Shown here piece by piece: positions 21,552 to 43,739 of a stretch of 43,739 bases of DNA (position 1 is the first letter of the stretch; every line of letters starts with the position of its first letter). A model generated the notes under the pieces. It did not search any database, had not been told where the DNA came from, and saw only the letters and a program-made list of their open reading frames with translations. The position numbers and the translations under genes were made by a program. This DNA comes from Flavobacteriaceae bacterium. GTDB taxonomy: Bacteria > Bacteroidota > Bacteroidia > Flavobacteriales > Flavobacteriaceae. Location: positions 1 to 43,739 of the forward strand of contig JABISF010000011.1 in the NCBI GenBank assembly GCA_018699935.1, given 5' to 3'.

Positions 21552-21658
21552 GCTTGCGTTTTTTTGCAATATCGTAAAATAAAGCAAAAGTGGCTGCATT
21601 TCACCTCTGCTTATAAAAAATGTGTACCTTTTTGTTCTATTCAAATCAAAATTTAAAC

Positions 21659-28247: not shown

Positions 28248-29597
28248 CTATTTCTCTTGAGCCAAAATTAAAGCGTTTGTGGTAAGTCGGTATTTGGAAA
28301 GCATATTGGTGATTTCCCAATCCGGAATTTGAGTGGCTTTAAAAAACGAGATAAATCTTTTGGTAACCCCAGCAAAATGTGCTTCATGACCTTCTCTCAA
28401 AGCCTTGGGAATGCTGATTTGATAGCGTTTGCCTTCATTTTCTAGGGCAACACCCGGATAGGTTTTTTCCAATTGAGCAATGGCTTGTGCTAGTGCCTCA
28501 GCATCAAATCCTTCTGAAGGTTCTACATAAAGTGAGGGAATATAATTTTGCGCAGCTCCTTGTTCGATGGAAAGAGCAGCTTTCGTTCCACGCATCACCG
28601 AGAAGTGCGTATCTCCTGTACCTGCTGGGGCTTCGTAATCCCAGCGAACAGAAACCTTGGCATGATGTCCTTTGATGCGATAGTGAATGCTTCCGTTGGC
28701 AAAAATATGCAAGCTGTCTTCCAGCACGTTTTTTTGTAGGTAATCCGGAATTGAGTTGGTTCCGGTCACTTTATAAAAAGCCTCTTTGCTGATCACTGTG
28801 GGCCAGCGTTCCGCGGCATCCAATTGTAGGTCGGCATCGTTGATTGCTGTTTCTGGAAAACATTCCCAAAACGTTAGGTCGACCAAATGGGTGGTCACAT
28901 CCGCAATACCTTCTCCTTGTTGGTCGGTGTCAAAAAACCAAGCCGGACGAATCAAAGGAGCACCGGATACATATTTAAAATAGTGATGTACGGATTCTTT
29001 GGTAATGGCGGGGGTTTCCGCAGTCCCTTGCCGCAAGCTGCCAAAAACAGCAGGAATTTGAGACAGTTCTTTTTGAAGAACGGTGGTGATTTCAGAACGT
29101 TCCGTCATAATATCATAGAGAAGAAGTCCTTTTTCGCTCGCCTTTTGGAAGGCTTGTTCCAATTTCGGATAGTCCTCCGCAGTGATCGCCATGGGTTTGT
29201 CGGCATACACATGGAAGCCGTTTTCGATGGCCGCCAGAATATAGTCCGTCTTTTTTTGGTTGTTACCCGATAACATCACCACATTGCCTTTTTTTTCTTG
29301 GAGCATTTTTTCAAAAAAATAAGCTCCTTTATAAACCACAGAATTCCAATGGGTAGGGGCTTCTGTTCGCGAGTTGTAGGCGTCTATTTTACTCAGATGA
29401 AGGTCTACATCGGGGGTGTCTGGAGCATACACCCGAACGTCGGGAGCAATCTCAACATAGTCACTCTTTTGGACCAATGCCGCATGAAAATGTCCTGGAT
29501 CTAAGGTAATCCAATGAATGGGATATTTTTTTTCCGGGGATTCACATTGAGCCATTAACAAAATTCCCAAAACCCAAGCAATATTTTTTATCCGCAT
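28248..29597 (-). CDS. Lipoprotein Gfo/Idh/MocA-like protein
   Basis: The 449-residue protein has a lipoprotein signal with lipobox LMAQC (Cys18). The following HWITLDPGHFHAALV replaces the normal GxGxxG dinucleotide motif. The Gfo/Idh/MocA active-site motif EKP appears as DKP at 133-135 (HVYADKPMAIT). The family fold seems kept, since a C-terminal DYEAPAGTGDTHFSVMRGTKA segment resembles the substrate domain. Sec-exported proteins fold outside, where NAD(P) is scarce, so whether it is a redox enzyme is uncertain. It overlaps the upstream Gfo/Idh gene by one base (TAATG) and appears to close the uronate operon. Confidence 0.8.
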   Translation of the reverse strand: MRIKNIAWVLGILLMAQCESPEKKYPIHWITLDPGHFHAALVQKSDYVEIAPDVRVYAPDTPDVDLHLSKIDAYNSRTEAPTHWNSVVYKGAYFFEKMLQEKKGNVVMLSGNNQKKTDYILAAIENGFHVYADKPMAITAEDYPKLEQAFQKASEKGLLLYDIMTERSEITTVLQKELSQIPAVFGSLRQGTAETPAITKESVHHYFKYVSGAPLIRPAWFFDTDQQGEGIADVTTHLVDLTFWECFPETAINDADLQLDAAERWPTVISKEAFYKVTGTNSIPDYLQKNVLEDSLHIFANGSIHYRIKGHHAKVSVRWDYEAPAGTGDTHFSVMRGTKAALSIEQGAAQNYIPSLYVEPSEGFDAEALAQAIAQLEKTYPGVALENEGKRYQISIPKALREGHEAHFAGVTKRFISFFKATQIPDWEITNMLSKYRLTTNALILAQEK

Positions 29598-30979
29598 TAG
29601 TATTTGATATTGGTTGTACCATAAGGAGCTCTTTGCGGACGACTCAAATAGGCGTTTGCTTCCGCATCATTGACAAATCTTTCGGTTTGAGGATTCCAGT
29701 TTAATTTTCGTGGAAGTTTCATTGCGATATTACTGATCAGACAGACCGTACACGCACGATGTCCTATTTCAACAGGAGAAATAGGTTCCTTGTCGGATTG
29801 GATACAATCCAACCAGTTGCCGTGTTGTTCTGTACTTTCGTACAAATGAATTTCGTTGGGTCCAATGACCGAATCCAATAGTTTTGGATCACTGGCATCT
29901 AAAGATTTCACGCCATTATTTTCGGGAATGGGATCAGAAGCCGTTGCTCTGTAGGCCCCTCGGGTAACAAAGATCCAGCCTTCCTCACCTTCATAACGAA
30001 TTCCATTGGGAAAACCGCCGCTAGTAGACATGGTAAGTCCATTTTGATATTCCGCTTTAACCATAAAATCTCCATGAACATTCCAACTTCCCGATTTAGG
30101 AAATTCAGCCACAGCTTCTACACTTATAGGGCCGGTATATTCGGTATTCATTCCCCAAGCAGCAGAATCAAAATGGTGTTGCCCCCAACCCGTGATCATG
30201 CCGGCACCAAATTGCTCATGGCGCAACCATCCAGGTCGTCCATAGCCCTTTTGTGGATGAACAAGCATTTCGGAATACTCCATTTCTGGCGTGGCGCCCA
30301 ACCAAGCGTCAAAATTTAGACCCGTGGGAATGGGTTCCGTTTGCGCCATAGGACCTGCGGGATCGCCTGGAAGCCCCACTTTAACATTGACCAATTTACC
30401 GATTCGACCATTTCTGACCAATTCAGCAGCATATCGAAATTGTGGCGAGGAACGCTGTTGGGTTCCTACTTGCAGTATAATTCCTTGCTGTTTTACAATA
30501 TCACTCAACATCCGCCCTTCTTCCACAGTGAGGGAGGTGGGTTTTTGTAAATAAACGTGTTTGTTTGCCAAAGCCGCTTCAATCGCAGGTTGTGCGTGCC
30601 AATGATCCGGAGTACTAATGATGACTGCATCAATGTCTTTGTCGGCAATAAGCGCCTTGTAATCGTCATACATTTTGGTATCCACTTTGGTTCCCTTTTT
30701 ATCGTAAAAAGCATCGACCAGCACTTTTGCATCTTCGGTACGATTGCGATCAAAATCACATACGGCAACGATTTGTGCTACGTCGTGTTGCATCGTGCCG
30801 GGCAAATCATGTCCTCTGGCAATTCGTCCACAACCGATTTGACCAATCTGAATACGATTGCTTGGAGCATTTTTTCCAAAAACAGAAGCGGGGACTATGG
30901 AAGGGATGGCCACAGCGGCCAAGGTGGTGGAAGATGTTTTTTTAATAAAATTTCTTCTACTGATGTTTGATTTTTTCAC
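29597..30979 (-). CDS. Tat-exported Gfo/Idh/MocA oxidoreductase
   Basis: The 460-residue protein has a twin-arginine signal, SRRNFIKK, at 7-14 and a hydrophobic stretch to about 36, so it is exported folded, probably with its cofactor bound, as known for Zymomonas glucose-fructose oxidoreductase. The NAD(P) motif is GCGRIA at 49-54. The EKP motif is QKP at 145-147, and the segment GTQQRSSPQFRYAAELVRNGRIGKL is typical of a large exported subfamily. It uses a GTG start. It lies 37 bases after the DUF6807 gene. A periplasmic sugar or uronate oxidation is inferred; the substrate is unknown. Confidence 0.88.
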   Translation of the reverse strand: MKKSNISRRNFIKKTSSTTLAAVAIPSIVPASVFGKNAPSNRIQIGQIGCGRIARGHDLPGTMQHDVAQIVAVCDFDRNRTEDAKVLVDAFYDKKGTKVDTKMYDDYKALIADKDIDAVIISTPDHWHAQPAIEAALANKHVYLQKPTSLTVEEGRMLSDIVKQQGIILQVGTQQRSSPQFRYAAELVRNGRIGKLVNVKVGLPGDPAGPMAQTEPIPTGLNFDAWLGATPEMEYSEMLVHPQKGYGRPGWLRHEQFGAGMITGWGQHHFDSAAWGMNTEYTGPISVEAVAEFPKSGSWNVHGDFMVKAEYQNGLTMSTSGGFPNGIRYEGEEGWIFVTRGAYRATASDPIPENNGVKSLDASDPKLLDSVIGPNEIHLYESTEQHGNWLDCIQSDKEPISPVEIGHRACTVCLISNIAMKLPRKLNWNPQTERFVNDAEANAYLSRPQRAPYGTTNIKY

Positions 30980-31016
30980 GAGACTAAGGTTTTATAAGTT
31001 ACTATTTTAAGGATTG

Positions 31017-32219
31017 TTATTTTTCTAGGCGCAATACTCTTGGCTGTGCAAATGCTCCCCATGCCCAATCGGCCACTTCTGGAGACATTTCTCCGTCATA
31101 AACGAGCATACGATAGCGTAAGGTATATTTTTTTCCCGGTTCTAACAACCAATCTGTTGTTTTGGTAGTTGCCATATTGGCAAATAAATCTCCTCTGCCG
31201 TATTGATCTTCCGGCCAAATCCGCAAGGGTTCGGGGTGATTGTAATTGTCGGGGTGGGACATCATCACGGCACCCCCTTTCCCTTCTGGCAGGGCTCCGT
31301 CTACAATACACCATCGGGCAGTAGTTCCGTCAGCATTTTTATGGGTCATTCCCTCGGAGCTCAATACTCGGCTGTTTTTGTTGTCCCAAAATTCCGTTGT
31401 CCGCCATCCAAATCCACCATATCGATATTTGATAATTTTAAAGGGTTGCTCCGTGGCGCACTCATAATCAATAACAAAATCTAATAAATAATGCGAAGCA
31501 TCCAATGGCGTTACACGGACCGTTTGAACTTCGTTTAAAACGATTTTCTCCGCACCATTTTTTAATACAACATGTTCTTGGAGGGCACTGTATTCACTGA
31601 AAATAGGGCCTGTTTTTTGATCTAAAAATTTAGCAAAACGCACGGTTCCTTCTTTTTTTACCAAATTCCAAAAATCGATGGTATCTCCTTCTACAAGGGT
31701 GTGTGTCCATGGATTCCAAATCCCGTAATGGTGGTAGTGATCTTTGGGCTGAATTCGGGTCAGCCGTTGTTCCGAAGGGGTGTTTAAGGGATGGATATAG
31801 CCACTTCTTCGGTAGGCCGGATCAACCCCCTCGGGGGCTTCGGTGACTTCGTATTGATAATCCATTAATTTTTTACCCCGGTAAAGGATACTCAAATGCC
31901 CGTCTTCTTTTTTCATTTCCAAGTCGGAGGCTGTGTTTTCGGTATCTCCGTTTCCAAGCTTGATGGACACTGCTCCAGATTCGCTGGGATCGAGTTTCCA
32001 AAGGATGTTTTCCCCATCCTGTTGATAGGCGACAGCACTTTGCTTTCCATTCTCATTTTTTAGAATTTCTAGTGGGTTTGCTTGTGTAGCTCCAATCGGA
32101 ATACGTATGATTTCAGGAAGCAAACCTTTTGCTTCTAGGGTAATGGGCGCTTCAGCACAGCTATAAAAAAGGAGACCAAGTGCGCTTAAAATTACAGCGG
32201 ATTTCGTGATGTTTTTCAT
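31017..32219 (-). CDS. DUF6807 (PmoA-like) lipoprotein
   Basis: The 400-residue protein has a lipoprotein signal with the lipobox cysteine at residue 21 (GLLFYSC). The mature protein contains the DUF6807 pattern (YRRSGYIHPLNTPSEQRLT, PKDHYHHYGIWNPWT, FGWRTTEFWDNKNS), a beta-rich domain with conserved His residues in HYHHYG. Databases call some of these PmoA (methane oxygenase) by mistake; there is no methane link here. Such genes occur beside Gfo/Idh/MocA genes in sugar loci. It lies 2 bases after the cytoplasmic Gfo/Idh gene and is inferred to act on a carbohydrate in the periplasm or at the cell surface. Confidence 0.82.
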   Translation of the reverse strand: MKNITKSAVILSALGLLFYSCAEAPITLEAKGLLPEIIRIPIGATQANPLEILKNENGKQSAVAYQQDGENILWKLDPSESGAVSIKLGNGDTENTASDLEMKKEDGHLSILYRGKKLMDYQYEVTEAPEGVDPAYRRSGYIHPLNTPSEQRLTRIQPKDHYHHYGIWNPWTHTLVEGDTIDFWNLVKKEGTVRFAKFLDQKTGPIFSEYSALQEHVVLKNGAEKIVLNEVQTVRVTPLDASHYLLDFVIDYECATEQPFKIIKYRYGGFGWRTTEFWDNKNSRVLSSEGMTHKNADGTTARWCIVDGALPEGKGGAVMMSHPDNYNHPEPLRIWPEDQYGRGDLFANMATTKTTDWLLEPGKKYTLRYRMLVYDGEMSPEVADWAWGAFAQPRVLRLEK

Positions 32220-32221
32220 GT

Positions 32222-33226
32222 TTACGGTTGATTATTTTTTGATGATTCATAGAGTTCGGTAATCAGGGCAACGGATTTTCGGGCGGTTGCTAAATCTACT
32301 TTTGGTGACTTTTTTTGCTCAAGCGCAGTGATAAAATCATCCAATACGGCCTGGTGCAAGCGGATGTCGTTGATTTTCGGATCGGCTTTGCCTTCGGCAG
32401 CTTCTTTTTGGGAAGACGAAACAGGAATTGCATCAATCGTAGAAGAGGTAATTTTTCCTTCCGAAAAACACACACTGCCTCCACTTCCATAGATTTCAAT
32501 ACGCTCGGGATGGCCAGGAAACAAAGCGGTACCGCCACTGAGTGTTCCCACAACACCATTTTTAAACTCTGCATAGGCTACAGCAATGTCTTCTCCCTCT
32601 ATGCGATGCACCTTGGTGTCAATCTTGCCGTAAATATATTTCAAATCTCCTAGTAAATCCAACCACAAATCAATGGTGTGTATGCCTTGATTCATAAGTG
32701 CCGCTCCTCCGTCGTAGAGCAAAGTGCCCCGCCAAGGACTGAAAGAATAATATTCCGGGGGTCGATACCAGTGAATTTGCGCATTACTGAGTAATAGATT
32801 TCCAAGTAGTCCTTCCGTAATCGCTGCTTTTAAGCGCTGGTATTCCGGATTCCACCGATTTTGATACACCACGCCCAAAGTTATTTTTTCAGTATTGATG
32901 AGCTTTTCAATAGCATCGATTTTTGGCAAGGTCACTTCGAGGGGTTTTTCGCAAAGGATATGCTTTCCGTGTTGCGCCGCTAGTGTAATGGCTGCTCCAT
33001 GATTGCCACTTTCATTGCAAACCACCACAGCATCCATTTTTGGGTGGGAATAAAACGCTTCAACGGTTTCAAAGTGATCCGTTTCAAAAGTGGTACTCAG
33101 CAATTCACCACGGCCTATATGAGGACTCAAAAATCCCAGAAGTTCAGCATTGGGGTGTGCTTGAATACATTGTGCATGCACTTTTGCAATCGATCCACTT
33201 CCCACAATTCCAAACCCAAGTTTCAA
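32222..33226 (-). CDS. Cytoplasmic Gfo/Idh/MocA oxidoreductase
   Basis: The 334-residue protein has a canonical Rossmann motif GSGSIA at 9-14 and the EKP active-site motif at 93-95 (HILCEKPLEVT). GAALMNQGIHTIDLWLDLLG resembles the substrate-binding helix with catalytic His and Asp. No signal peptide is present, so it should use cytosolic NAD(P). The start is a TTG, the only option giving a complete motif. It is 40 bases downstream of uxaA in the same operon and probably oxidises or reduces a sugar or uronate derived from the imported substrate. Confidence 0.88.
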   Translation of the reverse strand: MKLGFGIVGSGSIAKVHAQCIQAHPNAELLGFLSPHIGRGELLSTTFETDHFETVEAFYSHPKMDAVVVCNESGNHGAAITLAAQHGKHILCEKPLEVTLPKIDAIEKLINTEKITLGVVYQNRWNPEYQRLKAAITEGLLGNLLLSNAQIHWYRPPEYYSFSPWRGTLLYDGGAALMNQGIHTIDLWLDLLGDLKYIYGKIDTKVHRIEGEDIAVAYAEFKNGVVGTLSGGTALFPGHPERIEIYGSGGSVCFSEGKITSSTIDAIPVSSSQKEAAEGKADPKINDIRLHQAVLDDFITALEQKKSPKVDLATARKSVALITELYESSKNNQP

Positions 33227-33266: not shown

Positions 33267-34895
33267 TTAGAGGGAAACCCCTCTTTTCCATGGAATAAAA
33301 TCATGTTGTTGCAAGCGAGCAGCTTTGGTTTCCACTTCGCCACTTGCCGTTTTGATAATTAGCTCCAAGAGCAGATCTCCCAAGGTTTCTAAATCGTGGT
33401 TTTCTGTAATCATCGTACCACAATTAAAATCAATGATGTCCGACATTTTTTCCGCCAACGTGGTATTACTGGCCACTTTGATGACCGGCGTGATGGGATT
33501 TCCTGTAGGGGTTCCCAAGCCAGTAGTGAACAAAATGATATTGGCTCCCGATCCCGCCATGGCCGTGGTGCTTTCCACATCATTGCCGGGTGTACAAAGT
33601 AAAGAAACTCCATCGACTTTGACATATTCAGTATAATCCAAAATATCGTTGATGGGAGAGTTGCCTGATTTTTTCGCAGCTCCTGCTGATTTTATGGCAT
33701 CGGTAATCAGTCCATCTTTGATATTCCCCGGCGAAGGATTCATATCAAAACCCGATCCCACAGATTCAGCGGAGGTTTCATATTGATGCATCAAACTCAA
33801 AAAACGGTCGGCTAAAGCATCGGATTGACAGCGGTTGGCAAGCTCTTGTTCCACCCCGCAGAGTTCCGGAAATTCCGATAGTATGGATTTTCCGCCCAAG
33901 ACAGCGAGTAGATCACTCACCCTTCCCAAAGTAGGATTGGCGGTAATCCCCGACAATCCATCGGAGCCGCCACATTCCAAACCGATGGTCAATTTGGAAA
34001 GTGGAGCGGGTTGACGTTTAATGGCATTTGCTTTTTTGATGGCAGCAAAAGAATCCGAAATAATGGTATTTAAGAAGGTCTCAGTAGTCCCGGCTTTTTG
34101 TTGATCAAAAATCAAAACGGGTTTTTCAAATTGAGGATTTATTTCTTGGAGTGCTTCCTCAAACAATTTAATTTCTAAATTTTGACATCCCAAACTCAAA
34201 ACACTTGCGCCGGCCACGTTGGGATTGTTTACATAACCCGCCAAAAGACGTGCCAATGATTGGGCATCTTGACGAGTTCCGCCACAGCCCCCTTGATGGG
34301 TGATGAATCGGACTTTGATATTGTCAAAAGCGTGTTGGGTTGGAGCGGTGTCCGCTGAACGTTCTTCTGTCGATCCCTCTTTTCCTTGAAGGAGGTTACT
34401 CAACAATTGCTGATAAGGATCTTTCTTTGGGGGTGCCAATTCCTTTTCAAAGATTCCTTTCAACACTTGGATATTTCTGTTTTCACAAAAAACAAGGGGA
34501 AAAAATAACCAAATATTATCGGTACCCACCTGCCCATCGGGACGGTGATAGCCCATAAAGCTGCTGTTTTTCCATTTGGAAACATCGGGTGCCTCCCAAT
34601 GCGAATCCGCCGTTTTTTTGAGTACCTTTTCGGTTTGGTGAATGACATTTTCGGTGGTTAACAAGCCTCCTTGAGGAATCGGCTGCGTAGCTTTGCCCAC
34701 CAACACTCCATACATATAAATGGGGGTGTCTTTTTCAAAATCAATCAGTGCCAATTTGTGTTTGATCTGAATGGCTGCTTGTGTAGTGATTTCGAGCGAT
34801 CCAACATGTATTGTTGCGTGTTTGGGAATATCACACAAAGCGACGGCCACATTGTCGTTGGTATTGATTCGTAGCGCTTGAGCGGATGCTTTCAT
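33267..34895 (-). CDS. uxaA: Altronate dehydratase (fused SAF and catalytic domains)
   Basis: The 542-residue protein has the N-terminal SAF domain (about 1-90) and the large C-terminal D-galactarate/altronate dehydratase domain (GYHRPDGQVGTDN, FITHQGGCGGTRQDA, GLECGGSDGLSGITANP). It dehydrates D-altronate to 2-keto-3-deoxygluconate (KDG) using Fe2+ or Mn2+. Single-chain versions are common in this phylum. The start overlaps the uxaB stop by one base (TAATG). The position after UxaB and in an operon with KdgK and the aldolase fits the galacturonate pathway exactly. Confidence 0.92.
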   Translation of the reverse strand: MKASAQALRINTNDNVAVALCDIPKHATIHVGSLEITTQAAIQIKHKLALIDFEKDTPIYMYGVLVGKATQPIPQGGLLTTENVIHQTEKVLKKTADSHWEAPDVSKWKNSSFMGYHRPDGQVGTDNIWLFFPLVFCENRNIQVLKGIFEKELAPPKKDPYQQLLSNLLQGKEGSTEERSADTAPTQHAFDNIKVRFITHQGGCGGTRQDAQSLARLLAGYVNNPNVAGASVLSLGCQNLEIKLFEEALQEINPQFEKPVLIFDQQKAGTTETFLNTIISDSFAAIKKANAIKRQPAPLSKLTIGLECGGSDGLSGITANPTLGRVSDLLAVLGGKSILSEFPELCGVEQELANRCQSDALADRFLSLMHQYETSAESVGSGFDMNPSPGNIKDGLITDAIKSAGAAKKSGNSPINDILDYTEYVKVDGVSLLCTPGNDVESTTAMAGSGANIILFTTGLGTPTGNPITPVIKVASNTTLAEKMSDIIDFNCGTMITENHDLETLGDLLLELIIKTASGEVETKAARLQQHDFIPWKRGVSL

Positions 34896-36355
34896 TAGCG
34901 AAGTGAGGTTATATAGGTTTCAAATCCTTGTTCAACACCTTGATTTTCTATCACGGTTAAAGCCATTTTTAAATGATCGATCAAATCCGATTCCCGGCTG
35001 AGATCTACATCCCAAAGGATTTCGTTTTTCAAGATATTAATTATTGTTTTATGCAGTTGGTCTGCTTTCCAACAATTTTCAAAAAAGGCAATTTGTTCCG
35101 CATCGTCCTTTAGCGGCAAAACAGCCCCTTGCCAATTTCCTTGATAGAATCGAAGTAAACAAGCAAACGAAAAGCACAAATAGGGAGGGTATTCGCCAGT
35201 CGCTTCTTTAAAGGCTAAAATACTGGGTAGAACACGTACCTTAAATTTGGAAATGGAATTCAATGCGATACTGGCCAAATAATGATTGACAAAAGGATTT
35301 TCAAAACGTTCAAAAACGGCTTTGGAAAATTGTTCCATTTCAGCGGCATCTCCTTCCAAATGCGGGGCAATTTCGTTTAGTACAGCATGTTGTAAAAAAG
35401 TACTTGTAAAATCATTTTTCATAGTTTCCGCCACCGTGCTGTTGCCAAACATGATGGACAAGGGAACAATACAGGTGTGCGCACCATTTAAAATACGGAC
35501 TTTTCGGGTTCGGAAGGATTGGAGGTTGTCAACGATTTTTACATCCAAATTGGTTTGATCTAAAGGAAGTTTTTGTTGTAATTCTTCGCCTCCTTCAATC
35601 ACCCATAAAAAAAACGGTTCAGCCACCACCATCAATTGATCGTCAAAATCGGTGAGGGCTTTACAAGCCGCTTCGTTTTCTTTAGGATAACCCGTAACGA
35701 TGCGATCCACCAAGGTGTTGTGAAAGGAACAAGCGGAGTGGAGCCAGTGCGAAAAAGCCGGAGCTAATTGCCAATCTTCAATGTATTGAAAAATAATTTT
35801 TTCAAGGCTGTCAGCATTGTAATTGATCAACTCGCAAGGCAAGATGGCTACCCCGGCGGCGGCATCTCCTTTAAAATGATTCCAGCGTTCCCACAGCCAG
35901 CGCGTTAACTTGGCGGGAAAGCTTTTGGGCGGTGTTGAATCAAACCGATCCTCAGCGTCATAACTGATTCCCGCTTCGGTGGTGTTTGAAATAATGAAAT
36001 CAATAGTTTCCAGCTGAGCAGTGTTCAAATAGCCTTGAAAATCTTCGTAGGGATTATTGCATCCTACGAGGGTTTGCAGGGTTTTGTATTCCTCCACAGT
36101 TTGTCCTTCTTTAATCCCGTTGAGAAATAAGGTATAGGCACCCTGTTGTTTTTCGATGAGTGGAATCAATCCTTGGGCGATGGGTTGAATCACGATGATT
36201 CCGGCGTTGAAATCGGAATTGGCATTCATTTGATCGACCAAATCGCCGATGAATGCTCTTAAAAAATTCCCCTCACCAAATTGTAATATACGAGGGGGTA
36301 AAGTGTTATAAAAATTCACTAGCTGTTTTTTGTTTTTGGATGTTTTATAAATCAA
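34895..36355 (-). CDS. uxaB: Tagaturonate reductase (altronate oxidoreductase)
   Basis: The 486-residue protein belongs to the mannitol dehydrogenase family. It shows the N-terminal NAD-binding region (RILQFGEGNFLRAF) and the central motif with catalytic residues VRILNGAHTCIVPLSIMFG, as in UxaB. It reduces D-tagaturonate to D-altronate with NADH. Fructuronate reductase (UxuB) is a close paralogue; the partner UxaA and not UxuA downstream favours UxaB. The start is a TTG that overlaps dctM by 11 bases. Confidence 0.9.
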   Translation of the reverse strand: MIYKTSKNKKQLVNFYNTLPPRILQFGEGNFLRAFIGDLVDQMNANSDFNAGIIVIQPIAQGLIPLIEKQQGAYTLFLNGIKEGQTVEEYKTLQTLVGCNNPYEDFQGYLNTAQLETIDFIISNTTEAGISYDAEDRFDSTPPKSFPAKLTRWLWERWNHFKGDAAAGVAILPCELINYNADSLEKIIFQYIEDWQLAPAFSHWLHSACSFHNTLVDRIVTGYPKENEAACKALTDFDDQLMVVAEPFFLWVIEGGEELQQKLPLDQTNLDVKIVDNLQSFRTRKVRILNGAHTCIVPLSIMFGNSTVAETMKNDFTSTFLQHAVLNEIAPHLEGDAAEMEQFSKAVFERFENPFVNHYLASIALNSISKFKVRVLPSILAFKEATGEYPPYLCFSFACLLRFYQGNWQGAVLPLKDDAEQIAFFENCWKADQLHKTIINILKNEILWDVDLSRESDLIDHLKMALTVIENQGVEQGFETYITSLR

Positions 36356-37640
36356 ACATTTTTGGTAGCCATAGTGTAATTTGAGGGATAAAAGTAATTA
36401 ACATCAAAGCGAGTATCATCGCCAAAAACATTGGAATCAAAGGTCGAATGACCTTTTCAATACTGGTTTTGGCGATTCCAATTCCGACAAATAGCACCGA
36501 ACCCACGGGAGGGGTACACAGTCCAATACAGAGGTTGAGTACCATAATGATTCCAAATTGAATTGGGTCGATACCCAAGGTCGTAACCACGGGAAGAAAG
36601 ATGGGGGTAAAAATCAAAACCGCAGGAGTCATATCCATAAAGACACCTACGAAAAGCAGCAATAAGTTGATTATTAATAGGATGACGATCTTATTGTCAC
36701 TGATATTTAAAAGGAAGTCGCTCAAATTTTGAGGAATATTCTCATAGGACATGATCCACGACATACTCATGGAGGCAGCAATCAGTAGCATTACTATGGC
36801 ACTGGTTTTTGCGGATTCCAATAAAATATTAGGCAAGTCTTTTACCGATATTTCTTTGTAAACAAACCCAAGAACAAGGGTGTAAAGCACTGCGATGGCT
36901 GAAGCTTCTGTGGCGGTGAATAAACCGGCAACGATGCCACCAATAACGATAACCAATAATAACAAACTCGGAAAAGCAATTATAAAAGTTTTGAAAACTT
37001 GTTTGAAAGAACTTCTTCCGAAGGTTTTATAGTTGTGTTTTTTAGCCCAAATTCCAGCGACAATCATTAGGAAGAGTCCGGTTAAGATCCCTGGAATATA
37101 TCCAGCTAAAAACAAAGCGGCAATGGACACGCCTCCACTGGCCAAGGAATAAACAATGAGAACGTTACTGGGGGGAATGATCAATCCAATGGTGGCCGAG
37201 GTGATGTTGACCGCAGCTCCGTATTCTTTGGCATAGCCTTCTTTTTCCATTTCCGGACCTAGGATACTACCCATGGCCGAAGCGGAAGCCATGGCCGATC
37301 CGGCAATCGCACCCATCAGCATGGCCGCAATGATGTTGATCAATGCCAATCCTCCGGGGAATGCTCCCACGATGGTTTTGGCAAAACTGATCAGTCGGTC
37401 GGCAATTCCCCCATGCGTCATCAATTGTCCCGAAAGCACAAAAAAGGGAATGGCCAGCAGCGCAAAACTATCCAAGCCAGTGGCCATGCGTTGGGCAATG
37501 GTCGTGACTGCCGGCAGCATGGGAATGGACACCACGATAGTGAGCAAAGCAGAAATGGCAATACTCCAAGCCACAGGGGTTCCAATGGCAATAAAAAAGA
37601 TAAAACTTAAAACGAGAATGAAAACAGGTAGTAATTCCAT
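36345..37640 (-). CDS. dctM: TRAP transporter large permease (DctM)
   Basis: The 431-residue membrane protein has about 12 hydrophobic segments and the DctM family pattern, with GAIAGSAMASASAMGSILGPEM and ATIGLIIPPSNVLIVYSLASGG near the middle and LCIGLCTPPVGSVLFVG near the C-terminus. It is the transport subunit that uses the Na+ gradient together with DctQ and the binding protein. It lies 2 bases after dctQ. Its place in a uronate operon points to hexuronate uptake. Confidence 0.95.
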   Translation of the reverse strand: MELLPVFILVLSFIFFIAIGTPVAWSIAISALLTIVVSIPMLPAVTTIAQRMATGLDSFALLAIPFFVLSGQLMTHGGIADRLISFAKTIVGAFPGGLALINIIAAMLMGAIAGSAMASASAMGSILGPEMEKEGYAKEYGAAVNITSATIGLIIPPSNVLIVYSLASGGVSIAALFLAGYIPGILTGLFLMIVAGIWAKKHNYKTFGRSSFKQVFKTFIIAFPSLLLLVIVIGGIVAGLFTATEASAIAVLYTLVLGFVYKEISVKDLPNILLESAKTSAIVMLLIAASMSMSWIMSYENIPQNLSDFLLNISDNKIVILLIINLLLLFVGVFMDMTPAVLIFTPIFLPVVTTLGIDPIQFGIIMVLNLCIGLCTPPVGSVLFVGIGIAKTSIEKVIRPLIPMFLAMILALMLITFIPQITLWLPKMFDL

Positions 37641-37642
37641 GA

Positions 37643-38101
37643 TTATGCTGAACGTTGCGTGAGTTTATAAAAAATAATGAGCAAACCACTCACCGGAACA
37701 ATGGCATAGACCAAAGCAAGTGGGATTTGTAAAGAAGGTGAATATTGCTCCAACTTCATGGTGATATACACCAAGCGTCCACCGCCGATAACCAGTCCAA
37801 AAAGGGCAAGTGCGATAATGCTGAAAGAGATAAAACGCGCTAATAATTTTTGCACTTTGGGGCTGCTTTTCTTTGCAAAAACATCAATAGCTACGTGCTC
37901 ATTTCTTCCCGCAACATAGGCGGCACCGAGAATTCCCAGCCAAATCATTAGATAGCGTGCCAACTCATCGGTGAAGGAACTGGGATTGTCTGTAAAATAA
38001 CGGGTAAATACTTGCCACAATACATTGATCACCATCACACCCAAAATGGCCACTAAAAACTTGCCGATTAAGGCATCTACTTGGGCTCTAATTTTTTTCA
38101 T
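37643..38101 (-). CDS. dctQ: TRAP transporter small permease (DctQ)
   Basis: From the ATG at 38101 the protein has 152 residues and four hydrophobic helices (LVAILGVMVINVLWQVF, YLMIWLGILGAAYVAG, FISFSIIALALFGLVIG, IPLALVYAIVPVSGLLII), as DctQ proteins do. The WLGILGAAY segment is the conserved family motif. An upstream TTG start exists but the ATG, which overlaps the dctP stop by 14 bases, is the likelier start. Confidence 0.92.
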   Translation of the reverse strand: MKKIRAQVDALIGKFLVAILGVMVINVLWQVFTRYFTDNPSSFTDELARYLMIWLGILGAAYVAGRNEHVAIDVFAKKSSPKVQKLLARFISFSIIALALFGLVIGGGRLVYITMKLEQYSPSLQIPLALVYAIVPVSGLLIIFYKLTQRSA

Positions 38102-39059
38102 TGCGGATACGTTCAATTAAGTTTGCTATTACAGGGTCTTTGCTAAAATCATCATACATGGCTTTGGTGGCCTCTTGAAACGGGGCTTTTTCAGGATAAC
38201 TCACTTCCACCCCTGCATCGATGACGGCTTTTAGCGATTCGTTTTCAGACTGTGTCCACAATCTTCGTTGATCGATGATGGATTTATCCAAAGCTTCTTG
38301 CAACCATTTTTGTTCTTGCGCGCTCAACCGATTCCACAAATGTGTACTCACCAAAAGTATGTCCGGGATCATGGTGTGTTCATCGATAATGTAATATTTA
38401 CACACTTCGTAATGCCGGGAAAGATAGAAACTAGGGGGGTTGTTTTCGGCTCCGTCCACCACACCTTGTTGAATCGACGTGTAGAGTTCACCCCACGAAA
38501 TTGGAGTAGGGGAGCCTCCCAGTTGTTTTACCATTTCAAATGCCGAAGCACTTTCTTGTACTCTGATTTTTAAGCCTTCCAAATCTTGGGGCGTTTTGAC
38601 GGGGCGCTCTCGTGTGTAGAAACTGCGACTCCCCGAATCGTAATAGCCCAACCCTTTTAACCAATAATCTTCACCTTCTTTGAGGAGGGATTTCCCCACA
38701 TCTCCATCCAAAACTCGGAACAGGTGTTCTTTGTCATCAAATAGAAAAGGCAGTCCGAAAATGCGCATGTTTGGAGCAAAATTTTCCATCACGGCTCCGG
38801 AAACTTTGGTCATGTCCAAACTACCAATTTGAAGTAATTCCAGACATTCGCGCTCACTGCCCAATTGTTGGTTGGGATAGATTTGCAAACGCATTTTTCC
38901 TTCCGAAAGGTCATTTAAATAGTCATCGGCCTTCACCATCGCTTGGTGCACCGAGTGGGTGACATCCAAGCCATGACCCAAGCGGATGAGGCGTGTTTTG
39001 GAATCACTGGCACAGCCGGTCATTAAAAATAGTAGTAAAAGTAGTGACAGCTGTTTCAT
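38088..39059 (-). CDS. dctP: TRAP transporter solute-binding lipoprotein (DctP)
   Basis: The 323-residue protein has a lipoprotein signal with lipobox LMTGC (Cys16), so it should be lipid-anchored in the periplasm rather than freely diffusing. The DctP family features are clear: GLKIRVQES carrying the conserved substrate-carboxylate arginine, PTPISWGELYTSIQQGVVDGAENNP, and a helical C-terminus. TRAP binding proteins for D-galacturonate and D-glucuronate are known beside uxaC-type genes. It is 5 bases after the KDPG aldolase gene. Confidence 0.93.
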   Translation of the reverse strand: MKQLSLLLLLFLMTGCASDSKTRLIRLGHGLDVTHSVHQAMVKADDYLNDLSEGKMRLQIYPNQQLGSERECLELLQIGSLDMTKVSGAVMENFAPNMRIFGLPFLFDDKEHLFRVLDGDVGKSLLKEGEDYWLKGLGYYDSGSRSFYTRERPVKTPQDLEGLKIRVQESASAFEMVKQLGGSPTPISWGELYTSIQQGVVDGAENNPPSFYLSRHYEVCKYYIIDEHTMIPDILLVSTHLWNRLSAQEQKWLQEALDKSIIDQRRLWTQSENESLKAVIDAGVEVSYPEKAPFQEATKAMYDDFSKDPVIANLIERIRNEKN

Positions 39060-39064
39060 GCGTT

Positions 39065-39730
39065 TTATTTTAAGGATTGAATCGTTTGGAGGGTTTTGGC
39101 AACGGTGGCTTTTAGGCCTTGGAAATCTCGTTGTTCGATGACCGTTTTAGAAATCAACTGCGAGCCCATGCCCACACAAGTAACACCTGCACCAAACCAA
39201 GCCTTTAAGTTTTCTTCCGAGGTGTCTACGCCTCCTGTGGGCATTATGCTGGTCCAGGGTTGCGGGCCTTTGATGGCTTTGACAAATTCGGGACCGTAGA
39301 TGTTTCCTGGGAACAGTTTTACGATTTCCGCTCCGCGTTCTTCAGCAGCAGCAATTTCGGTCAAGCTGCCACAGCCCGGCGACCAGAGTACTTTCCGACG
39401 GTTGCAAACAATGGCAATATCCTCTCTGTAGACTGGGGTCACAATAAAATTAGCGCCGTTTTTCATATAGTCACTGGCGGCAGCGGCATCCGTTATGGAG
39501 CCAACACCCAATATCATTTCGGGGAGGGCTTTTTCAGAAAAAAGCACCAATTCCCGGAACACTTCGTGGGCAAAATCGCCCCGATGGGTGAATTCCAAAA
39601 GTCGGGCACCTCCTTCATAACAGGCTTGAAGCACCTGTTTGGCGATTTCCACATCTTTGTGATAAAAAAGGGGAACCAAGCCCGTTTTTTGCATTTGTTC
39701 GACAACCTGTAGTCTTGTAAATCGTGCCAT
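39065..39730 (-). CDS. eda: 2-keto-3-deoxy-6-phosphogluconate (KDPG) aldolase
   Basis: The 221-residue class I aldolase has the Schiff-base lysine at 138 in EIVKLFPGN, equivalent to the lysine of the KDPG aldolase family. GGVDTSEENLKAWFGAGV and VGMGSQLI are the phosphate-binding end. It splits KDPG to pyruvate and glyceraldehyde-3-phosphate. It begins 11 bases after kdgK, so the two last pathway steps are adjacent. Some relatives also cleave 4-hydroxy-2-oxoglutarate. Confidence 0.93.
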   Translation of the reverse strand: MARFTRLQVVEQMQKTGLVPLFYHKDVEIAKQVLQACYEGGARLLEFTHRGDFAHEVFRELVLFSEKALPEMILGVGSITDAAAASDYMKNGANFIVTPVYREDIAIVCNRRKVLWSPGCGSLTEIAAAEERGAEIVKLFPGNIYGPEFVKAIKGPQPWTSIMPTGGVDTSEENLKAWFGAGVTCVGMGSQLISKTVIEQRDFQGLKATVAKTLQTIQSLK

Positions 39731-39741
39731 CTTTTTTTATT

Positions 39742-40782
39742 TTATCTAGCAACTCTGCCCGAAGCATCGCCGCCCATTAATTTTTCAACTTCACTCACGG
39801 TCACCAAATTGGCATCTCCTTTTATGGTGTGTTTTAAACAAGAAGCCGCCACTGCAAAATTCAAAGCGTTTTGATCATCCTCGGGATAGGTCAAAAGCCC
39901 ATAAATTAACCCCCCCATAAAAGAGTCTCCACCGCCCACACGGTCAACAATATCAGTGATTTGGTACTGCGGACTTTCATACATGGTGGTTCCGTCGTAA
40001 AGCACTCCTGCCCAGGTGTTGTGTGAGGCTGAAATGGAACCCCTGAGGGTGGTGATTACTTTTTTGGCTTTGGGAAATTTCTTCATCATTTGCTCGCAAA
40101 CGGATAAAAAGGCAGCCGCTTTGACTTCATGACCTTGGGTGGTGATGTCCAATCCTTCCGGTTTGATGCCAAAATGCATTTCAGCGTCTTCCTCATTCCC
40201 CAAAATAATATCGCAATACGAAGTGAGTTCGGTCATAATGCCTTCGCGATCGCCGCCGTATTTCCACAATTTGGCTCGGTAGTTAAGATCGGTAGAAATA
40301 GTGATGCCAAGAGCGCTTGCAGCTTTGACTGCTTCCAAACAGGCGTCTGCAGCTCCCTGAGAAATAGCAGGAGTGATGCCCGTCCAATGAAACCAGCGCA
40401 CTCCTTCAAAGACGTTTTTCCAGTCAATCATCCCGGGCTGAATCTCCGAAATGGACGAATGTGCCCGATCGTAAACGACCTTGCTGCCACGACTTACAGC
40501 TCCCGTTTCTAGAAAGTAGATGCCCAAGCGTTCGCCTCCTCTTAAAATATGGTTGGTTTGTACTCCGCGTTTGCGTAATTCCATAAGGGCACAATCGCCC
40601 AAATCATTTTGGGGCAAGCGAGTGACAAAGTCCACATCGACACCATAATTGGCAAGGGACACCGCCACGTTGGATTCTCCACCGCCATAGACCACGTCAA
40701 AGGAGTTGGTTTGTGAAAATCTCAAAAATCCTGGAGGTGACAAGCGTAGCATGATCTCTCCAAAAGTTACAACTTTATTCAT
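39742..40782 (-). CDS. kdgK: 2-keto-3-deoxygluconate kinase (PfkB family)
   Basis: The 346-residue PfkB-type sugar kinase has an N-terminal GEIMLRLSPPGFLRF substrate-binding segment typical of KDG kinases, and the C-terminal VGGGDSFMGG motif with the catalytic base Asp286. It phosphorylates KDG to KDPG with ATP. It is the second gene of the operon, 37 bases after uxaC. Confidence 0.92.
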   Translation of the reverse strand: MNKVVTFGEIMLRLSPPGFLRFSQTNSFDVVYGGGESNVAVSLANYGVDVDFVTRLPQNDLGDCALMELRKRGVQTNHILRGGERLGIYFLETGAVSRGSKVVYDRAHSSISEIQPGMIDWKNVFEGVRWFHWTGITPAISQGAADACLEAVKAASALGITISTDLNYRAKLWKYGGDREGIMTELTSYCDIILGNEEDAEMHFGIKPEGLDITTQGHEVKAAAFLSVCEQMMKKFPKAKKVITTLRGSISASHNTWAGVLYDGTTMYESPQYQITDIVDRVGGGDSFMGGLIYGLLTYPEDDQNALNFAVAASCLKHTIKGDANLVTVSEVEKLMGGDASGRVAR

Positions 40783-40819: not shown

Positions 40820-42217
40820 TTAATAATTAAAATATTCTTTTGCATTGTGATAACAAATATCTGAAACAATTTTCCCGATCCATTGGGGGTCGTTGGGCAA
40901 CAAGCCCTTTTCGATATCTTGACCGAAGAGATTACATACCAAACGTCGGAAATATTCGTGTCTTGGAAATGACAAGAAACTTCTGGAGTCTGTCAGCATC
41001 CCAATAAAACAACTAATGAGTCCCATATTGGACAAGATATTCATTTGATCGGTCATTCCGTCCAATTGATCCAAAAACCACCATCCGGAACCCCACTGAA
41101 TTTTGCCTTTCAAGGAACCGTCATTGAAATTTCCAATCATGGTAGCCATCATTTCGTTGTCCCCGGGGTTGAGGTTGTAGAGTACCGTTTTGGTCAATTG
41201 ATTGTTGCTGTCCAACCGATCCAAAAAACGCGAAAGTGCATGGGCAACTGGATATTGACCGATGGAATCCCAACCGGTATCGGGCCCCAAAAGTTGGAAC
41301 ATTCGCGTGTTGTTGTTGCGCATGGCTCCCAAGTGAAACTGTTGAACCCAGCCTTTTTCGTGATATTTTTCACCCAAAAACAATAGGAGTGCCGTTTGAA
41401 ATTGAGCAGATTCGTCAGCTGTCACCGCAGCTCCGGACCTGCGTTTGGCAAAGATTTTTGACAAACGAGCAGCATCCGTTTCTTGATAGGGAATGGTGTT
41501 GAGACCATGATCCGACAAGCGGCAACCGTTTTCATGAAAAAAGTCCAAACGTTTGGTCAAGGCCAAACACAAATCATCATAAGTGGCGATGTCGATTCCA
41601 GCCACTTCCCCAAGGCGATCGATATAGGCATTGTAGGCGGGTTGATCAATCAAAACGGATTTATCAGGTCGAAAGGCCGTGCTGACCTTGATGGCAAAAT
41701 CAGAAGCCGCCAAGTTTTGATGATGTTCCAAAGTATCGGTGGGGTCTTCGGTAGTGCACAACACTTCCACCTTCATGCGAGTAAGGAGTTTTTGTGCGGA
41801 GAAGTTTTCAGTGCTGACTTGTGCCGAAGTACTGTCGTACACGCGTTTGGCATTCTGGGGGGTCAACAATTCGTATTCGTCAAAATAGCGTGCCAATTCC
41901 AATTGTGACCAATGGTACAATGGATTGCGTAAGGTATAAGGAAGGGTAGTCGCCCACTTTTGGAATTTTTCCTCATCGGAAGCATTGCCCGTAATGTACT
42001 TCTCATCAATTCCAAAGGTGCGCATGGCGCGCCATTTGTAATGATCTCCAGCAATCCAAAGGTCAGTAATGTTTTTGTATTGATGATCCTCGGCGATGGC
42101 CTGTGGAGGAAGGTGATTGTGATAATCGATAATTGGTAAATCCTTTGCAAAATCGTGATACAGCGATACAGCATAGTTATTTTGAAGAAGAAAATTATCG
42201 TGGATGAATTGTTTCAT
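40820..42217 (-). CDS. uxaC: Glucuronate/galacturonate isomerase
   Basis: The 465-residue protein is a UxaC-family amidohydrolase-fold isomerase. DYHNHLPPQAIAED carries the first metal-site His residues, and PTDTLEHHQ and RPDKSVLIDQP follow. It converts D-galacturonate to D-tagaturonate and D-glucuronate to D-fructuronate in the cytosol. It heads the uronate operon. A -7 element lies 60 bases upstream, and a LacI-type operator adjoins its -33 region. Confidence 0.95.
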   Translation of the reverse strand: MKQFIHDNFLLQNNYAVSLYHDFAKDLPIIDYHNHLPPQAIAEDHQYKNITDLWIAGDHYKWRAMRTFGIDEKYITGNASDEEKFQKWATTLPYTLRNPLYHWSQLELARYFDEYELLTPQNAKRVYDSTSAQVSTENFSAQKLLTRMKVEVLCTTEDPTDTLEHHQNLAASDFAIKVSTAFRPDKSVLIDQPAYNAYIDRLGEVAGIDIATYDDLCLALTKRLDFFHENGCRLSDHGLNTIPYQETDAARLSKIFAKRRSGAAVTADESAQFQTALLLFLGEKYHEKGWVQQFHLGAMRNNNTRMFQLLGPDTGWDSIGQYPVAHALSRFLDRLDSNNQLTKTVLYNLNPGDNEMMATMIGNFNDGSLKGKIQWGSGWWFLDQLDGMTDQMNILSNMGLISCFIGMLTDSRSFLSFPRHEYFRRLVCNLFGQDIEKGLLPNDPQWIGKIVSDICYHNAKEYFNY

Positions 42218-42284: not shown

Positions 42285-42320
42285 AAATACTTTGATTCAA
42301 TATAAAGTATAACACAGTAT

Positions 42321-42332
42321 GTTAACGTTAAC
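42321..42332. promoter_or_regulatory. LacI-type operator O1 in the uxaC-susC gap
   Basis: GTTAACGTTAAC is a perfect 12-base palindrome with a central CG, the pattern bound by LacI-family repressors. It lies about 105 bases before the uxaC start and just beyond its -7 element, and repeats the core of operator O2. Confidence 0.65.
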
Positions 42333-42437
42333 GAAAATACTTAAATTTTAATATTATTTGTCAATCTCGGTCATAAAAATATTTTGACCCCCTCTTTTTT
42401 ATACAGAACAGTGAGAATTTGTCAATTATTTAAGGTT

Positions 42438-42563: not shown

Positions 42564-42583
42564 GTTCGTTAACGTTAACGAAC
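42564..42583. promoter_or_regulatory. LacI-type operator O2 upstream of susC
   Basis: GTTCGTTAACGTTAACGAAC is a perfect 20-base palindrome centred on CG. It includes the full 12-base O1 core and lies 30 bases before the susC ATG. A perfect palindrome of this length is very unlikely by chance. Confidence 0.75.
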
Positions 42584-42612: not shown

Positions 42613-43739
42613 ATGAGAAAATTACTTTCGAATGGTATTAAGATGTTCTTTTTCTTGAATATTGTTTTCATTTATGCCCAAACATCAGTGCGTGGGGTAG
42701 TGACGGATGCCGAGACAGGCACGCCACTTCCGGGGGTGAATGTCATTATTCAAGGAACAAGCACCGGAGTTTCCACAGATTTTGATGGGAACTATCAAAT
42801 TAACGCTGAATCTGGGCAAACCTTAGAGTTTTCCTTTTTAGGATTCGAAACGCAAGCAATTGCGGTAAGCAGTGATCAACTGAATGTGTCCTTGGCACCT
42901 TCTACCAATTTCCTAGATGAAATTGTAGTAACAGGATACGGTACTCAATCCCGTAGAGAGGTTACAGGATCCATTGTAAGTATTGGAAGTGCGAGTATAG
43001 AGAAAATTGCTACAGGTAGTGGTGTAGATGCCATTAAAGGACAGGTAGCAGGGGTCGATATAACTTCTGGAGGCGGACGACCAGGTCAAAACCCTGTAGT
43101 TCGGGTTCGAGGACGTCGCTCAATTTCTGCATCCAACGATCCGCTGTATGTTATTGATGGAATTCCACAAACAAGTAGTACAGGAGATGGAGCTATCTTT
43201 GATATCAATCCACAAGACATTGAGTCTATGGAAATCCTTAAGGATGCAGCTGCCACCGCTATTTACGGTTCTAGAGGAGCCAACGGGGTTATCTTGATTT
43301 CTACCAAACGCGGTAGAACAGGTGCTACAAAAATTAATTATTCAGGGTATTACGGAATCACTTCTGTTACTAATATTCCTGATATGATGAATGGCGAAGA
43401 GTATGCGGCAGGAAGACGTGAAGCATTCCGTCAAGACGAAAACAGTCGATATTCTTATGCAGGTACCATTCCTAACGACGAAGCTGTTTTCTTAGGTGAT
43501 GCTGCTCAATTGGAATCTATTAGAACTGGAAGATCATTCGACTATTTAGATGCCGTTTTAAATCAGGGATTTCAAAATAGTCATCAACTTTCAGCCAATG
43601 GTGGTTCTGAAGACACTCAATATAATGTTTCCTTAGGTTATTTTAAAGAAGATGGTATTATCGACCAAATGGACTTTGAACGTGTTACAGGTCGACTTAA
43701 TTTAGACCACAGAATTAACGATACGTTCAAGTTTGGAAT
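42613..43739 (+). CDS. SusC-type TonB-dependent outer-membrane receptor (5' part)
   Basis: The frame is open from the ATG at 42613 to the window edge, giving 375 residues of a protein that should be about 1000. A signal peptide (MFFFLNIVFIYAQ) is followed by a CarboxypepD_reg-like domain (about 26-113: VRGVVTDAETGTPLPGVNVIIQ), the TonB box-like DEIVVTGYGTQ near 114-124, and the plug domain (RVRGRRSIS, PLYVIDGIPQ, MEILKDAAATAIYGSRGANG). SusC proteins import oligosaccharides through the outer membrane with TonB. Divergence from a uronate operon suggests a uronate-containing glycan such as pectin. A susD gene is expected next but lies outside. Confidence 0.93.
   Translation, partial: MRKLLSNGIKMFFFLNIVFIYAQTSVRGVVTDAETGTPLPGVNVIIQGTSTGVSTDFDGNYQINAESGQTLEFSFLGFETQAIAVSSDQLNVSLAPSTNFLDEIVVTGYGTQSRREVTGSIVSIGSASIEKIATGSGVDAIKGQVAGVDITSGGGRPGQNPVVRVRGRRSISASNDPLYVIDGIPQTSSTGDGAIFDINPQDIESMEILKDAAATAIYGSRGANGVILISTKRGRTGATKINYSGYYGITSVTNIPDMMNGEEYAAGRREAFRQDENSRYSYAGTIPNDEAVFLGDAAQLESIRTGRSFDYLDAVLNQGFQNSHQLSANGGSEDTQYNVSLGYFKEDGIIDQMDFERVTGRLNLDHRINDTFKFG

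Follow-up and report, generated by a model that had tools for sequence, protein, structure and literature searches.

The 43,739-nt window analysed here, which is the whole of contig C58 (JABISF010000011.1) of a Flavobacteriaceae draft genome (G000; 2.17 Mb, 87.9% complete), raises the question of what four genes at the end of a hexuronate operon contribute to it. These genes encode a cytoplasmic Gfo/Idh/MocA (GFO) protein (cytGFO), a DUF6807 (PF14100) lipoprotein, a Tat-exported GFO protein (TatGFO) and a GFO-like lipoprotein with a C-terminal PF16490 domain (lipoGFO). The initial annotation had treated them as a single block. We find that the recurring unit is the DUF6807-TatGFO-lipoGFO triad and that this triad is linked at the genome level to hexuronate catabolism. 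We give roughly even chances to the proposal that it acts in the periplasm as part of an oxidoreductive (3-keto-type) pathway by which hexuronates are freed or converted from a glycan imported through SusCD.

The operon lies on the minus strand in the order uxaC, kdgK, eda, dctP, two TRAP permease genes, uxaB, uxaA, cytGFO, DUF6807, TatGFO and lipoGFO. As first described, the last four open reading frames (ORFs; 28248-33226) follow uxaA closely, with gaps of 40 nt (uxaA-cytGFO), 2 nt (cytGFO-DUF6807) and 37 nt (DUF6807-TatGFO) and a 1-nt overlap between TatGFO and lipoGFO. Inspection by eye also agreed with the three compartments originally assigned: cytGFO has no visible signal sequence, TatGFO has a twin-arginine motif, and DUF6807 and lipoGFO have lipoboxes. 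UxaC, UxaB, UxaA, KdgK and Eda family members occur together in the operon, as in an isomerase-type hexuronate pathway; UxaC, UxaB and Eda scored above NCBIfam cut-offs, and UxaA (far below the cut-off of the galactarate dehydratase model) and KdgK were assigned through their Pfam family only. Because these complete pathway families lie upstream together with the TRAP genes, galacturonate catabolism in its known form does not require the four extra genes, just as the initial annotation had held. The same gene order is found in three Flavobacteriaceae metagenome-assembled genomes (MAGs) and one uncultured Bacteroidetes assembly (L100, L101, L104 and L099; L100 and L242 are one 55,055-base contig, counted once) as far as their stretches go, L101 beginning within kdgK and L104 at dctP, so that the arrangement is not due to chance.

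To define the recurring unit, we compared loci from three sets of genomes. PF14100 was present at 85 places in 52 of 299 family genomes (236 genera; the PF14100 and UxaC samples were taken as one), and DUF6807, TatGFO and lipoGFO occurred in identical order in 26 of 60 fetched family loci (from the 84 places outside the window). A ThuA gene is interposed in the triads of L094 and L097, and the triad genes lie apart in L098. Named genomes were scanned with an alignment of 12 DUF6807 proteins; among the best 80 of at least 543 confirmed stretches (the named loci), 33 held all three genes, not always adjacent, 22 held DUF6807 and TatGFO, and 25 held DUF6807 without TatGFO, some of them through contig ends. 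In an independent sample of the phylum, PF16490 was present in 30 of 395 genomes, the window's included, as a single match in 28 of the 30. Neighbourhoods anchored on PF16490 from 25 of the 29 other genomes (G001 and G032 are not among them, and G491 and G632 hold fragments only) contained TatGFO in 18 cases, DUF6807 in 14 and ThuA in 10. We conclude from the family, named and phylum counts that the unit is the triad and that TatGFO and lipoGFO form its most constant pair. The whole triad was also seen in a MAG named Sedimentisphaerales, a planctomycete (L130), which is either an inter-phylum transfer or a binning error. Among cultivated strains, Saonia flava carries the block, in L115. In addition, DUF6807 matches lie within open frames of ~1300 amino acids at seven places (including G189:C14 and G129:C7), and the domain thus seems to occur in much larger proteins as well.

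The view of all four genes as one block did not hold, since cytGFO goes with uxaB and uxaA. The uxaB-uxaA-cytGFO cassette sits between the TRAP genes and DUF6807 in the window, L099, L100, L101 and L104; in L102, L103 and L105 the TRAP genes are followed directly by DUF6807. The PLP-decarboxylase, MscS and sortilin-like genes downstream in the window are also found in L099, L101, L102, L103 and L105, indicating one chromosomal site at which some loci have the cassette and others lack it; among the three cassette-less loci, DUF983 is kept in L102 only. UxuB and UxuA are near the block in L102 and L103. Relatives of cytGFO (E up to 1e-50) were present in 27 of 397 family genomes, the window's included, and among 20 fetched neighbourhoods of the 26 others the block was near just one, in the same-genus L242 (the contig of L100). 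We therefore rejected cytGFO as a member of the recurring unit. A few loci point the other way: a 47% relative in L083 shares its stretch with a second-type DUF6807 gene. Three of the 20 neighbourhoods (L248, L249 and L261) lie near a DUF1080 relative, and weaker cytGFO relatives (32-34%) are found in 3 of the 25 PF16490 phylum loci.

With matches to PF01408 (76 bits against a cut-off of 24), PF22725 and PF02894, and with G11, K94 and H183 invariant in 6 sequences, cytGFO belongs to the Gfo/Idh/MocA superfamily. Its best relatives in the PDB are 3q2k and 3q2i (WlbA, a UDP-sugar uronate 3-dehydrogenase), followed by 8tdi, 'Glucuronide-3-dehydrogenase' (3.1e-22; 82 bits, residues 63-258). Given these solved relatives, cytGFO is expected to be a uronate-type C3 oxidoreductase. 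It shares with 3q2k/3q2i and the P2B11 enzyme of 8tdi a W..(R)P..YY....WRG/A stretch, a likeness by sequence only, and differs from them in being cytoplasmic and part of a uxaBA cassette. A strict form, W.RP..YY...WR, was tried as a uronate signature and discarded: among 2,639 proteins it matched the window's cytGFO alone, with a looser form common to the 6 cytGFO sequences.

How is the triad tied to hexuronates? UxaC was present in 117 of the 299 family genomes. It was found in 49 of the 52 genomes with DUF6807 versus 68 of 247 others (Fisher 4.4e-20) and in all 27 block genomes versus 90 of 272 others (Fisher 1.3e-12), in tests uncorrected for relatedness and genome size. The block genomes are those of the 26 family loci in the same order (with L077, without L098) plus the window's. 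Broken or partial UxaC matches in G269, G270 and G290 were left in the background count, which works against the claimed link. The genome-level link of the block to hexuronate catabolism is real. In a tree of 153 DUF6807 sequences, moreover, the window groups with L099-L105 and L242 (support 1.0), all of which are in hexuronate operons.

The genes near the 26 family loci (here after an overlap filter that removed L077, whose TatGFO was overlapped by a longer ORF, and admitted L098) were ThuA in 23, LacI in 15, SusC in 12, SusD in 12, UxuA in 9, UxuB in 9, a DUF7133-cytochrome c gene in 9 and TRAP in 6. ThuA is absent from the window operon, with two copies elsewhere in the genome. A two-domain cupin recurs near DUF6807 (e.g., L118:13927-14709), in 12 of the 33 full-block and 8 of the 25 TatGFO-less named loci, and may be a further pathway enzyme.

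A hint to the chemistry came from the region between the SusC-like gene and uxaC, which contains a perfect 20-base palindrome, GTTCGTTAACGTTAACGAAC, and a copy with three mismatches; 100 shuffles of the window gave none. The 12-base core, GTTAACGTTAAC, occurs at four places in G000, two of them in the window. The third lies on contig C85, with a DUF1080-GFO pair on one side and a further GFO gene on the other. The fourth, on contig C59, has a GH78 rhamnosidase, rhaM and a GFO gene as neighbours; a joint uronate-rhamnose regulon is possible. In G703 (same genus, 95% complete) the core has three places: before uxaC, between DUF1080-GFO-DUF6807-DUF1080-LacI and GFO-UxuB-UxuA sets, and in a rhamnose-type cluster (by eye). 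One contig of this genome carries the operon, SusC, SusD, LacI (L262:8274-9332), two DUF1080 genes, a second DUF6807, GFO genes, UxuB and UxuA, with the SusC-SusD pair at the place of the window's SusC-like start, which the contig end cuts. G137, a third genome of the genus, contains UxaC; DUF6807 and the core were not found in it. The core is also present in seven second-type DUF6807 loci with DUF1080 (L047, L049, L054, L056, L057, L060 and L061; five with uxaC) and in L090, and such a locus holds the genome's sole core place in G018, G222 and G231. The block is thus probably in a regulon with known 3-keto-sugar enzymes, and this is the strongest hint to its chemistry. Promoter and terminator scans of the window were not above shuffles (25 versus a mean of 29.9, and 21 versus 17.7); the terminator list first revealed the palindrome. 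In a same-genus relative, the window-type operon is adjoined by a set (L262:8274-17156) in which a DUF6807 gene of the second type is grouped with two DUF1080 genes and one for a Tat-GFO, so that two parallel versions stand side by side.

The exported proteins were examined for features that bear on such chemistry. DUF6807 is a clear member of PF14100 (4.5e-66; 223.7 bits against a gathering cut-off of 27; profile positions 2-269 of 270). Across the 153 aligned sequences, which represent two subfamilies and contain duplicates, Tyr121, His163, His164, Trp184, Arg273, Trp303, Asn325 and Pro329 do not vary, and Asp160 (144 of 153), Glu230 (146) and Asp247 (151) are near-invariant. Against the PDB, two sequence matches (E of 0.13 and 0.23) were taken as chance, and a profile search returned none at E up to 5. 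An AlphaFold2 model built from 53 sequences was mostly beta (pLDDT 90.1, pTM 0.89). Foldseek matched the model to LacZ, GalM-type mutarotases, PL26 rhamnogalacturonan lyase and heparin lyases with probability ~1 and E down to 1.6e-05, although the TM-scores were 0.28-0.49 (query length) and identity 7-12% among the 50 matches listed. The predicted fold weakly resembles mutarotase-type sandwiches, and a fold common to mutarotases and lyases would fit an acid/base step on a sugar ring without choosing between them. The possibility that window-type DUF6807 is a remote relative of DUF1080, the 3-keto-disaccharide hydrolase family PF06439, was rejected, as hhalign gave a probability of 11.3% across 13 columns; the second DUF6807 type reached 54.7% across 63.

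TatGFO matches PF01408 (72.9 bits against a cut-off of 24) and PF19051. In 57 sequences, 103 of 460 positions are conserved at 97% or more, including G49, G51 and K146, and the GxG loop is normal; with this loop and the catalytic Lys the protein falls within the Gfo/Idh/MocA superfamily. It is distantly like the BT_2158-type glycoside 3-dehydrogenase. In lipoGFO, the PF16490 match is strong (8.1e-116) and that to PF01408 partial (30.7 bits against 24, profile positions 53-113); PDB 4oo3, an unnamed protein, matches it at 3e-148, and Lys134, Asp233 and His237 are invariant in 23 sequences. All 34 relatives have a T-x-DPGHFHA-x-L-x-QK loop at the place of the glycine-rich NAD loop of GFO proteins. 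A simple twin-arginine pattern was found in 55 of 60 members of the TatGFO cluster. The simple lipobox pattern matched 11 of 80 DUF6807 and 12 of 34 lipoGFO proteins, and with so few matches the lipoprotein claim is weaker for the families at large than for the window.

Previous work offers two models for how these proteins might act together. In PMC9007349, BT2157, a DUF1080 protein, is described as a 3-ketotrehalose hydrolase. PMC10628242 describes a pathway of Agrobacterium tumefaciens in which oxidation is followed by an eliminase, a hydratase and a Gfo reductase. By analogy with the DUF1080 pathways and the Agrobacterium pathway, TatGFO with bound NAD would oxidise a ring hydroxyl of a uronoside, probably at C3; DUF6807 would carry out the acid/base chemistry, as beta-elimination, hydration or both, whether or not the DUF1080 proteins whose genes have the same palindrome take part; and lipoGFO would return the hydride to the keto-uronate. 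Uptake of the free uronate through TRAP and its degradation by UxaC-UxaB-UxaA-KdgK-Eda would follow. As a lineage-specific addition with uxaBA, cytGFO would probably be a cytoplasmic uronate-type 3-dehydrogenase or a keto-uronate reductase that salvages imported keto-uronates. We infer every reaction and substrate of this route. The initial annotation had pointed to oxidative 3-keto routes of Bacteroidota and suggested that the block frees or converts modified uronates before or after TRAP uptake; the palindrome common with a DUF1080/GFO cluster favours the 3-keto part and, as the proteins of the block are mostly exported, action before uptake. Methylated or unusual uronates, also suggested there, are possible substrates. 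Our guess is that the glycan contains both uronate and rhamnose, because the rhamnosidase cluster has the same palindrome.

The resemblance to known systems is partial in each case. With the Bacteroidota 3-keto-glycoside pathway (BT2157-BT2159; DUF1080/PF06439) the window unit shares exported GFO proteins, a palindrome common with DUF1080 genes and the distant BT_2158_fam likeness of TatGFO; it differs in having DUF6807 and PF16490 instead of DUF1080, in its hexuronate tie and in a TatGFO score under the family cut-off. The O-glycoside beta-eliminase pathway of Agrobacterium (PMC10628242) follows the same logic of C3 oxidation, elimination, hydration and Gfo reduction, whereas its eliminase is a Mn2+ TIM barrel and DUF6807 is predicted to be all-beta. 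In PMC11036162, a Gfo/Idh/MocA (GH109) protein of unassigned function has its peak expression on arabinogalactan, with a mannonate dehydratase near polysaccharide utilization locus 8, which is suggestive only. Use of 3-keto-disaccharides by thuAB (ThuA plus GFO) has a parallel in the ThuA-family genes near the block in most family loci, although not in the window operon. The reaction of ThuA itself is unsettled.

Several observations weigh against the proposed periplasmic route. The Fisher tests above take no account of shared ancestry or genome size, and the uronate link of the initial annotation, which stood genome-wide in that the block does not occur mostly without UxaC, fared less well locally: a hexuronate gene lay in the fetched stretch at under half of the loci (10 of 26 family, 14 of 33 named and 7 of 25 phylum loci). 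Nor is the module obligate, given the 25 named loci, some of them cut by contig ends, that have DUF6807 and no TatGFO. The Foldseek matches of DUF6807 have TM-scores below 0.5 and large root-mean-square deviations and include viral capsid proteins, and no relation of the window type to DUF1080 emerged at the profile level. The match of TatGFO to BT_2158_fam (NF058561; 6.5e-38) reached 130.5 bits against a cut-off of 750 and covered residues 7-284 only. In the cofactor loop of lipoGFO an Asp replaces the first glycine, and this protein may not bind NAD. To our knowledge, neither DUF6807 nor PF16490 has a known activity. The core word is not over-represented, with 19 places versus 22 for a backwards control (G184, 8 versus 5; G231, 1 versus 6; G004, 0 versus 3) in 11 hand-chosen genomes, several of them chosen for having shown the word earlier, and the case for the palindrome therefore rests on its placement. 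The sole core place of G050 is elsewhere, and among 16 block or related loci searched with up to 3 mismatches the palindrome lay between genes in L090 only, with weak matches inside ORFs in L065, L099 and L100.

Could the same genes serve another purpose? DUF6807 might be a mutarotase or epimerase of uronates or keto-uronates, or a binding protein, with the GFO proteins acting on free uronates as epimerases or dehydrogenases and the glycosidic bond left uncut. We regard this as rather doubtful. GalM and other aldose-1-epimerase-like proteins are among the Foldseek matches, the invariant His163, His164 and Arg273 and the near-invariant Glu230 and Asp247 would suit acid/base chemistry, and the operon includes a TRAP transporter, a type that takes up small acids; mutarotation alone, however, leaves unexplained the pairing with two exported GFO proteins and the palindrome common with DUF1080 genes. 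Ordinary accretion, in which redox genes came to lie downstream in a polysaccharide utilization locus by happenstance and without a common pathway, appears very improbable. Genes like those of GFO proteins are abundant, with up to 50 first-look cytGFO candidates per genome, and cytGFO lay away from the block in 19 of the 20 fetched family neighbourhoods. Chance accretion would not account for a triad order kept over large distances, for UxaC in every block genome or for PF16490 as a single match in nearly all of its genomes.

We also considered, and hold to be improbable, that the block demethylates hexuronates bearing a 4-O-methyl ether and thereby gives UxaC access to the bare uronate. In the chemistry that we propose for this case, oxidation next to the ether, at C2 or C3, would allow methanol to be lost through elimination or through hydrolysis of the enol ether, after which re-reduction would yield the uronate; that the triad is such a periplasmic cycle of oxidation, elimination/hydration and reduction, with release of methanol, is likewise hard to credit. 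Glucuronoxylan markers occur in 10 of the 33 full-block named loci (GH10 in 6, CE15 in 6, GH115 in 3 and GH67 in 2, with assignments confirmed on one representative per family), and an extra redox step would have to serve some other end at loci whose alpha-glucuronidase already breaks the bond. Our literature search found no paper joining 4-O-methylglucuronate, demethylation, methanol and catabolism. Such markers are nevertheless rare at block loci: GH67, GH115, GH10 and CE15 relatives were found in none of the 26 family loci, and a xylan marker in 2 of the 25 phylum loci. Xylan genes are absent from the window operon, which leads into the galacturonate branch, and the genome's sole GH67 is on another contig. 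In PMC4765114, thuAB-like genes are concerned with maltose rather than xylan and so lend demethylation no support.

The proposed periplasmic route draws on known elements, namely the 3-keto strategy, dehydrogenases of the GFO type and hexuronate catabolism. In the literature text open to our search, a single paper mentions DUF6807, as a number only, and 'PmoA family protein' was not found together with polysaccharide utilization. A pairing of DUF6807, TatGFO and PF16490, its hexuronate tie and the palindrome were not found in print, in a search that most subscription journals lie outside. If the proposal holds, PF14100/DUF6807 and PF16490, neither of which has an assigned function, would find their place in a pathway, and Bacteroidota could free or re-tool uronic acids without need of GH28, GH67, GH88/105 or GH115, the four families tested. 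GH88/105, GH115, GH67 and GH28 were not matched in G703 by BLAST with one representative per family, a search that may miss remote members and that covered these families among the GH and PL families; as G703 has the whole system, the tested hydrolases would in that case not need to take part. The same search of the window genome found one GH67 and one GH28, both on other contigs, and did not match GH88/105 or GH115. Ten DUF1080 matches are present there, two of them within one open frame. Uronates are major constituents of the glycans of plants and algae, and genome-based predictions of degraders would change if the route is real. Were demethylation true instead, it would supply the step that leads methyl-glucuronate from alpha-glucuronidase to UxaC in glucuronoxylan loci, and in window-like loci it would act on other methylated uronates. 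The small gene set and the palindrome allow a direct test.

Table 1. Coordinates of the hexuronate operon, the triad and adjoining features in the 43,739-nt window.
Feature	Position	Strand	Basis or remark
lipoGFO, Gfo/Idh/MocA-like lipoprotein with PF16490 C-terminal domain	28248..29597	-	Family match; lipobox LMAQC by eye
TatGFO, Tat-exported Gfo/Idh/MocA protein	29597..30979	-	GTG start; twin-arginine motif SRRNFIKK by eye
DUF6807 (PF14100) lipoprotein, candidate lyase/hydratase	31017..32219	-	Family match; lipobox FYSC by eye
cytGFO, cytoplasmic Gfo/Idh/MocA protein	32222..33226	-	TTG start; signal sequence not seen by eye
uxaA, altronate dehydratase	33267..34895	-	D-galactarate/altronate dehydratase family and context
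uxaB, tagaturonate reductase	34895..36355	-	NF002969, 586 bits, above cut-off
TRAP large permease subunit	36345..37640	-	Named by sequence reading; conserved beside trapQ and dctP
TRAP small permease subunit	37643..38116	-	Named by sequence reading
TRAP solute-binding protein DctP	38088..39059	-	Family match
eda, KDPG/KHG aldolase	39065..39730	-	Family match
kdgK-like PfkB sugar kinase	39742..40782	-	Best matches and context; NCBIfam models all below cut-off
uxaC, hexuronate isomerase	40820..42217	-	Family match; first gene of the operon
Operator-like palindrome, 3-mismatch copy	42317..42336	.	Exact GTTAACGTTAAC core; ~100 bases upstream of uxaC
Operator-like perfect 20-base palindrome GTTCGTTAACGTTAACGAAC	42564..42583	.	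~30 bases upstream of the SusC-like gene
SusC-like TonB-dependent receptor	42613..43737	+	Divergent from uxaC; cut by contig end

Elsewhere in the window, a DUF4953 Met-zincin gene (19185-21689, minus strand) and a gene for a large sortilin-like protein (21620-24910, plus strand) have longest frames that overlap at their 5' ends, and the true start of one or the other probably lies further inside.

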